Assembly (NCBI GenBank): GCA_027490955.1
Contig: JAIXXB010000021.1
Span: forward strand, 60,859 to 124,858
Reading direction: 5' to 3'
DNA: 64,000 bases
Origin: Rhodobacter sp.
Lineage (GTDB): Bacteria; Pseudomonadota; Alphaproteobacteria; Rhodobacterales; Rhodobacteraceae
Part shown: positions 47,090 through 48,433 of the stretch, in pieces
Layout of the letters: each line of letters opens with the position of its first letter
Position numbering within the stretch: the stretch's first letter is position 1
Made by a program: the position numbers and the translations under genes
Notes under the pieces: generated by a model
What the model was told of the DNA's origin: nothing
The model's input: only the letters and a program-made list of their open reading frames with translations
The model's database searches: none

Positions 47090-47572
47090 CTAGGCTTTGC
47101 CGATTTGCGGCGTGGTTGGGGCCAGATCAACCTGCACGTCTTTCGCGCCTGCGCGGCCAATTTCAATGCGGCGGGGGCGCAAAGCCTCGGGCATTTCGCG
47201 GATCAGGTCGATATGCAGCATGCCATGTTCATGGGTTGCCCCCGTCACGCGGACATGATCGGCCAAGGCAAAGCGCCGCTCGAACGCGCGGGTGGCGATG
47301 CCACGATGCAAAAAGCTGCGCTCTTCACCCTCGTCATTGCGCCGAGCCGTGACCAAAAGCGCGCTTTCCTTGACCTCGACATTCAGATCATCGGGCGAAA
47401 AGCCAGCCACGGCCAGTGAAATGCGATAGCTGTCCTCGCCCGTCTTTTCGATGTTATAGGGCGGGTAGGCGGCCGTGCTGGCATCTGCCGACAGCGCGCG
47501 GTCCAAAAGATCGGCGATTCGGTCAAAGCCGACTGTGGCGCGGTAGAGCGGAGTAAAATCATAGGTACGCAT
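47090..47572 (-). CDS. Hsp20/alpha-crystallin family small heat shock protein
   Basis: YPPYNIEKTGEDSYRISLAVAGFSPDDLNVEVKESALLVTARR..FERRFALADHVRVTGATHEHGMLHIDLIREMPEA. Confidence 0.96.
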   Translation of the reverse strand: MRTYDFTPLYRATVGFDRIADLLDRALSADASTAAYPPYNIEKTGEDSYRISLAVAGFSPDDLNVEVKESALLVTARRNDEGEERSFLHRGIATRAFERRFALADHVRVTGATHEHGMLHIDLIREMPEALRPRRIEIGRAGAKDVQVDLAPTTPQIGKA

Positions 47573-47658
47573 GGGTCATCCTTTCAAAGCGATGTGTTGC
47601 GGTTCATGCACCTTCCCAGATGGGCAAGGCAGCGTCCCAAAGCCGACTGGCCTTTGGG
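47573..47658 (-). promoter_or_regulatory. Candidate ROSE-like RNA thermometer in hsp20 5'UTR
   Basis: Three hairpins; last pairs UCGCU (47592-47588) with AGGA SD (47582-47579) with bulged G. Confidence 0.65.
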
Positions 47659-47665
47659 TGGTTTG

Positions 47666-47695
47666 TATTTGGGAAGGCATTTGCCCCGTTTCAAG
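47666..47695 (-). promoter_or_regulatory. Putative RpoH (sigma-32) promoter of hsp20
   Basis: Minus strand CTTGAAA -N15- CCCAAATA. Confidence 0.55.
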
Positions 47696-47758
47696 ACCTG
47701 CGATTGGGGCGTGACATTGCGCGCCCATTGGCTAGCTTAGACAAAAAGGAGACATCCG

Positions 47759-48433
47759 ATGCCGCAACTGCCGCTTTATGATGTGATCGCGCTTGGCGTT
47801 ACCCTAAGCGCATGGCTGGGCATTGGCTGGCTGATCGAACATCCCCCCGCGCGCTGGCCATCTGTCAGCTATATCATGCAGGATTATCGCCATATGTGGA
47901 TGCGCGAGTTTGTCACCCGCAGCCCGCGCGTCTTTGACGGTACGATCATCGACAGCCTGCGGCAGGGCACGGCGTTTTTTGCCAGCGCCTCGATGATTGC
48001 AGTGGGGGGCGGGCTGGCGCTGATTGGCAATCCCGCGCTGCTGATGGGGTTGGCGGCAGATTTGCCGCTGCCCTCTGATCTGGCGCAGATGCGCGCACGC
48101 GGGGTTTTGGTGGTGTTGTTTTTGGTCAATGCGCTGCTGAAATTCGTTTGGGCGAACCGCCTGTTTGGTTATTGCGCCATTGTGATGGCCGCCGTGCCGA
48201 ATGATCCCAATGACCCGCAGGCGTTTTTGCGGGCTAGCCAAGCGGCGGATTTGAACATTACGGCGGCGAAAAGTTTCAATCGCGGGCTGCGGTCGATTTA
48301 CTTTGCGCTGGGCTCATTGGGCTGGATGCTGGGGCCGTGGGGGCTGATTGCGGCCACGCTGGTGACCACGGCGGTGCTGTTTCGCCGCGATTTTGCCAGC
48401 ACGTCACGGCAGGTGATGTTGCGGGGGCGGTAG
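47759..48433 (+). CDS. DUF599 membrane protein
   Basis: DYRHMWMREFVTRSPRVFDGTIIDSLRQGTAFFASASMIAVGGGLALIG. Confidence 0.92.
   Translation: MPQLPLYDVIALGVTLSAWLGIGWLIEHPPARWPSVSYIMQDYRHMWMREFVTRSPRVFDGTIIDSLRQGTAFFASASMIAVGGGLALIGNPALLMGLAADLPLPSDLAQMRARGVLVVLFLVNALLKFVWANRLFGYCAIVMAAVPNDPNDPQAFLRASQAADLNITAAKSFNRGLRSIYFALGSLGWMLGPWGLIAATLVTTAVLFRRDFASTSRQVMLRGR

Follow-up and report, generated by a model that had tools for sequence, protein, structure and literature searches.

More than 40 ROSE elements were reportedly predicted in a 2005 study by Waldminghaus et al. They form a well-established class that occurs in both alpha- and gamma-proteobacteria (PMC4166951, PMC3669281). The 5'UTR of Escherichia coli K-12 ibpA is an experimentally established ROSE thermometer, and measurements on Pseudomonas ibpA showed melting of the Shine-Dalgarno (SD) hairpin but not of hairpin I (PMC3669281). 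Deleting G39 by itself did not remove heat induction in P. putida (PMC3669281). ROSE-like motifs before ibpA and hspD have also been mentioned for a genome of the Roseobacter clade, that of Nautella sp. R11. These motifs concern the same family and gene type as the element described here, but the genome paper mentions them only in passing, and the accessible part of its text contained neither an alignment nor a structure or a test (PMC3230580).

We analysed the leader of an hsp20 gene in a 64,000-nt stretch of DNA from Rhodobacter sp., referred to below as the window; its features are listed in Table 1. With high confidence we regard this leader as a ROSE-type RNA thermometer, of which the structure is supported by covariation and the thermal switching is suggested by homology. 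It resembles the E. coli ibpA ROSE (RF01832, ROSE_2) in the CCUGUCC/GGAAGG hairpin with a bulged G, the UCGCU anti-SD, the AUGCGUA start, the ibpA-type gene and the sigma-32 control. With the rhizobial ROSE (RF00435; Bradyrhizobium ROSE1) it shares the UYGCU/SD hairpin, the bulged G and the position before an sHsp gene, but ROSE1 has four hairpins and the window element three. The short, two-hairpin ROSE of Pseudomonas ibpA follows the same anti-SD logic, whereas the window element has an extra stable hairpin (PMC3669281).

Table 1. Features of the hsp20 leader in the window and of the second hsp20 leader in the same genome
Feature	Position	Strand	Basis
-35 element CTTGAAA, RpoH (sigma-32) type	47689..47695	(-)	zero-mismatch match
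-10 element CCCAAAT	47667..47673	(-)	T47667 fits T-9 and C47695 fits C-37 (RpoHI logo)
Whole putative ROSE element, equal to the predicted 86-nt 5'UTR	47573..47658	(-)	covariance-model matches R1 and R2; Rfam ROSE_2 below cut-off
Hairpin I: 7 pairs, bulged G47651, 2 pairs; stable	47636..47658	(-)	fold and comparative
Hairpin II: GCCUU(G)CCC-aucu-GGGAAGGU, bulged G47625; stable	47610..47630	(-)	fold and comparative
Hairpin III, predicted thermosensing: CAUC(G)CUU-uga-AAGGAUG, 7 pairs	47577..47594	(-)	98.3-98.6% of cells paired
Anti-Shine-Dalgarno UCGCU (UYGCU motif), bulged G47590	47588..47592	(-)	conservation across 79 elements
Shine-Dalgarno AGGA, 6 nt from AUG 47572-47570	47579..47582	(-)	invariant in 79/79 aligned elements
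hsp20/ibpA-like gene, 160 aa	47090..47572	(-)	Pfam HSP20, E 1.5e-18
Second hsp20 leader, ROSE-like: UGUCGCUUU opposite AAAGGACA, with RpoH-type promoter	just upstream of start codon L002:1902 (contig C39)	(-)	

Inspection of the window showed that the sequence and coordinates of the leader were as given in a preliminary description, which had proposed three consecutive hairpins. Hairpin I, placed there at 47658-47636, was present in the minimum-energy fold. The same fold contained hairpin II, for which the proposed positions 47629-47611 were found to be the core of a full stem at 47630-47610. Both hairpins were modelled closed from 15 to 60 °C. The third hairpin was confirmed in its essential part, namely the imperfect pairing of UCGCU (47592-47588) with AGGA (47582-47579) around the bulged G47590 in the 3'-proximal hairpin, with the SD 6 nt from the AUG. 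The outer GCATG (47609-47605)/CATGC (47573-47569) pair, which had been thought to include the start codon, had to be given up: its probability was 0.02–0.03 at 25–42 °C, and GCATG was found upstream in only 5/80 orthologues. An alternative clamp, CGCA/UGCG, was favoured in the fold of the window (0.64–0.84), yet its 5' arm occurred in only 20/80 orthologues, and it was rejected as well.

Folding at 25 and 42 °C, as the preliminary description had recommended, gave all three hairpins, with hairpin III weaker at the higher temperature. Its predicted stability was –3.9 kcal/mol at 25 °C but only –1.45 kcal/mol at 42 °C. The unpaired probability of the SD was 0.07 at 25 °C vs 0.14 at 42 °C, indicating slow opening only; this shallow melting was predicted with nearest-neighbour parameters, which do not include the non-canonical pairs of ROSE. 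The predicted behaviour, with hairpins I and II closed while hairpin III weakens, was like that measured for Pseudomonas ibpA (PMC3669281). Compared with shuffled sequences, the folding energy of the leader was not significant (z of –1.29, 17/200 shuffles as good), and it was dropped as evidence for the element.

Unlike the folding energy, the comparative evidence for a three-hairpin leader is decisive. Eighty orthologous loci were fetched, and 79 elements were aligned. An alignment of 77 leaders made with MAFFT alone (A1), which was not fitted to any model, was retained as a control for the model-based realignment (A3). The same leader plan was visible by eye across the orthologous loci. The UYGCU motif had U, G, C and U at its first, third, fourth and fifth positions in 79/79 elements, and C (77) or U (2) at the second; the bulged G and AGGAU were invariant in 79/79. 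In A1, 88.9% of the pairs were standard, against 80.1% after shuffling (0/500) and 43–61% when the structure was slid, and 177 cells were changed on both sides vs 65 in shuffles. The corresponding values for A3 were 94.6% standard pairs and 240 vs 76 cells. Changes on both sides were observed in 7/9 pairs of stem I (8/9 in A1), 5/6 modelled pairs of stem II and 2/7 pairs of stem III (A3 values). The covariation check on orthologous hsp20 leaders proposed earlier thus revealed compensatory changes in stems I, II and III, far above the controls, in a leader with three hairpins (two to four are expected for ROSE) and stable 5' ones. Within stem III, the outermost pair was mostly C-G, U-G or U-A, and the loop-adjacent pair was C-G, U-G or U-A with zero failures; as several core pairs never vary, the covariation support for this hairpin comes from few variable pairs. 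RNAalifold applied to the MAFFT alignment found hairpins I and III unaided and missed hairpin II, owing to misaligned 3' arms, which was cured by the model-based realignment.

It was also observed that each of the three hairpins had a bulged G in its 5' arm and that this base was conserved (A3 columns 13, 54/57 and 121, corresponding to window positions 47651, 47625 and 47590). That of stem I was invariant in 79/79 elements, although this stem is not expected to melt. The conserved bulged Gs are possibly a site of protein or tertiary contact.

Two covariance models were used, R1, which included the window, and the near-identical R2, built from 78 elements without the window. R1 matched the window at 47564-47663(-) with 52.2 bits. 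When R2, whose source alignment had been fitted with R1 and thus with a model including the window, was run against the 2.96-Mb genome, the window element was the only significant match (E of 9.5e-10, the next being 1.36). R2 also matched the experimentally proven E. coli K-12 ibpA 5'UTR over its full length and in register, with an E of 1.8e-8. A weaker match of R2 was observed to the E. coli K-12 ibpB leader (21.4 bits; L182:1890-1980), which suggests that the leaders of ibpA and ibpB share an origin.

Searches with R1 found the element in 111/121 genomes of the family, each of a different genus and at one place per genome, and in 70/289 genomes of the class (~44 families). All of the 58 places fetched, the weakest included, were directly upstream of hsp20. 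Across the phylum, R2 matched 38/299 genomes, and since 37 of these belonged to the class, its reach is mainly alphaproteobacterial. Two model matches each were seen in G609 (C9 and C14), G247, G121 and G145, genomes which probably contain two ROSE-controlled hsp20 genes of the window type.

A search with the Rfam ROSE models, also suggested in the preliminary description, succeeded only below the gathering threshold, at which Rfam gave no match in the window. Up to an E of 10, the sole match in the window was ROSE_2, which was full length but scored 16.6 bits against a cut-off of 65, a difference from RF01832; its E was 0.93 over all families, or ~2e-4 for the single model after division by 4227. 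In one relative, ROSE_2 and ROSE were the top two of 4227 Rfam families at the same place, full length and below threshold. Among the 121 family genomes, not one had a ROSE_2 match above the cut-off, and the two places matched below it coincided with R1 places; ROSE (RF00435) was above its cut-off in 1/121, at a different hsp20-like gene. No Rfam match over the cut-off fell on an R1 place in the 111 family genomes that have one. For RF00435 in the 289 class genomes, 8 places were found, 1 of them above the cut-off, and 5/8 were R1 places. The missed thresholds are a limit of the curated models RF01832 and RF00435. The one family genome in which a rhizobial-type ROSE exceeded the Rfam cut-off, before a different hsp20-like gene (G102:C1:527325-527416), also has an R1-type element elsewhere, so that two kinds of ROSE occur together.

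Upstream of the leader, CTTGAAA-N15-CCCAAAT (47695-47667) fitted an RpoH promoter with 0 mismatches and was the only match with two or fewer mismatches in the window. Because ~0.7 matches at two mismatches are given by chance, the case for the promoter rests on conservation. In every orthologue whose upstream sequence was long enough, TTGA and a CCCARAT-like box were found at the corresponding place, 14–15 nt, rarely 10–13 nt, apart. The RpoHI promoters of Rhodobacter sphaeroides are characterized by TTG, C at –37 and T at –9 (PMC3441632). All of these were present in the window, together with CTTGAAA, the CCCAT-like box and the standard spacing. Taking T47667 as T-9 and C47695 as C-37 puts +1 at 47658, and the transcript is accordingly predicted to begin with the first base of hairpin I. 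A start inside hairpin III, which had been named beforehand as an argument against a thermometer, was therefore not indicated. Within hairpin III, the consensus scanner also gave a sigma-70 promoter-like match (47587-47558; 10/12). It was rejected, as it had no comparative support and the RpoH promoter conserved in orthologues was upstream of it. The hsp20 genes of R. sphaeroides are presumably RSP_1016 and RSP_1572. Both are in the protein folding group of the RpoHI regulon (PMC3441632).

The HSP20 gene starts at 47572, which places the element within the 5'UTR of an sHsp gene. The closest NCBIfam model to the protein was IbpA, with 143 bits, under the equivalog cut-off of 212. Its residues Y36, R95, R99 and R100 are the equivalents of Y34, R93, R97 and K98 of E. 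coli IbpA. Among the 80 orthologues, the equivalents of Y34 and of R93 were each found in 80/80, and R or K at positions 97 and 98 also in 80/80. The gene and a DUF599 gene (47759-48433, plus strand) are divergently oriented, with an intergenic stretch of 47573-47758. Many relatives have an upstream gene with a conserved ..GAKF(V/L)xP-stop end directly 5' of the promoter, and the hsp20 neighbourhood of the window looks rearranged compared with theirs.

The earlier interpretation as a ROSE element is upheld by the UYGCU/SD pairing with a bulged G, the stable 5' hairpins, the sHsp gene, the RpoH-type promoter and the covariance homology to E. coli ibpA. In the mechanism that we propose, an RpoH-dependent promoter would start the transcript at hairpin I, and hairpins I and II, stable and the first to fold, would act as a scaffold. 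Hairpin III sequesters the SD, with AGGA paired to UCGCU around the bulged G, a structure shown by the covariation. Ribosome binding would be low at growth temperature. Upon heating, the marginally stable hairpin III would open as in its E. coli ibpA homologue, the ribosome would bind and Hsp20 would be made. By this analogy, the SD is very probably sequestered until the cell warms. With RpoH acting on transcription and ROSE on translation, heat would act twice.

Other explanations of the conserved leader were considered. If the conservation arose from DNA-level sites or by chance and not from RNA structure, strong conservation of parts of the primary sequence and a weak folding z-score might be expected, and both were seen; nevertheless, this is already contradicted by the compensatory changes seen in each of the three stems, by loops rich in indels and by the specificity of the model for hsp20 leaders, so that we give it practically no credence. 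The good RpoH promoter and the shallow predicted melting would also agree with a static, temperature-independent lock on the SD, which keeps basal translation low and leaves heat control to RpoH alone. This seems very improbable, because the leader is homologous to proven thermometers, and its imperfect UYGCU/bulged-G pairing is invariant, whereas perfect pairing would be acceptable in a static lock.

The IbpA proteins of E. coli, Cedecea and Vibrio bind their own 5'UTR via R93, the self-repression of E. coli IbpA also needs R97/K98 and Y34, and R93 and Y34 have already been noted in alpha-proteobacterial IbpAs (PMC10474464). The leader could be chiefly a target of such autorepression, in which free Hsp20/IbpA blocks translation until it is titrated by aggregates, and temperature acts indirectly. 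This is favoured by the equivalents of these residues kept in the window protein and the 80 orthologues, and by stems I and II, which are stable and strongly conserved yet need not melt. However, autorepression is known from gamma-proteobacteria, the residues may be conserved for some other function, and the anti-SD pairing alone predicts thermosensing; we therefore consider it rather unlikely as the chief role of the leader. Autorepression and thermosensing may coexist. Tentatively, we suggest that in Rhodobacteraceae and much of Alphaproteobacteria the ROSE leader might be a two-input sensor, in which heat opens hairpin III, and the chaperone arginine binds hairpins I and II with their bulged Gs and represses translation until aggregates titrate the chaperone. 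If true, IbpA autoregulation would no longer be confined to gamma-proteobacteria. As R93 and Y34 of alpha-proteobacterial IbpAs were noted before (PMC10474464), the idea of autoregulation is not new and is only extended here. The conservation of R93 makes chaperone-RNA autoregulation straightforward to test outside gamma-proteobacteria.

A ROSE element before hsp20 of Rhodobacteraceae belongs to a known RNA class and is not a new class. The preliminary description had supposed that ROSE was not well described in this family. However, the mention of ROSE-like motifs in Nautella sp. R11 means that the family was no blank for ROSE (PMC3230580). As far as the literature found shows, the covariation proof, the family-wide extent, the failure of Rfam and a model bridging RF00435 and RF01832 are new. 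A much-sequenced family thus appears to carry ROSE thermometers missed by routine Rfam annotation (111 vs 1 of 121 genomes), and the alignment and model bring together the ROSE families of rhizobia and enterobacteria, which are separate in Rfam.

Also new here is a two-hairpin ROSE-like leader on the one other hsp20 gene of the same genome. This leader contains CTTGCGC/CCCCATAT and has GUCGCU opposite AGGAC, a plan resembling the two-hairpin ROSE of Pseudomonas ibpA. An Rfam scan of it gave no ROSE match and chance matches only. In 27 aligned family members, GUCGCU was invariant, and the SD was AGG[A/G]C in nearly all; the covariation support was weaker than for the window element. Near this second hsp20 gene (contig C39, L002:432-1188), an IS1595-like transposase gene was identified by reading of the open reading frame. 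The ends of the IS1595-like element are the perfect inverted sequences GGGTCTATTCCAGCTGAG/CTCAGCTGGAATAGACCC, with an apparent 8-bp target duplication, TTTCACAA.
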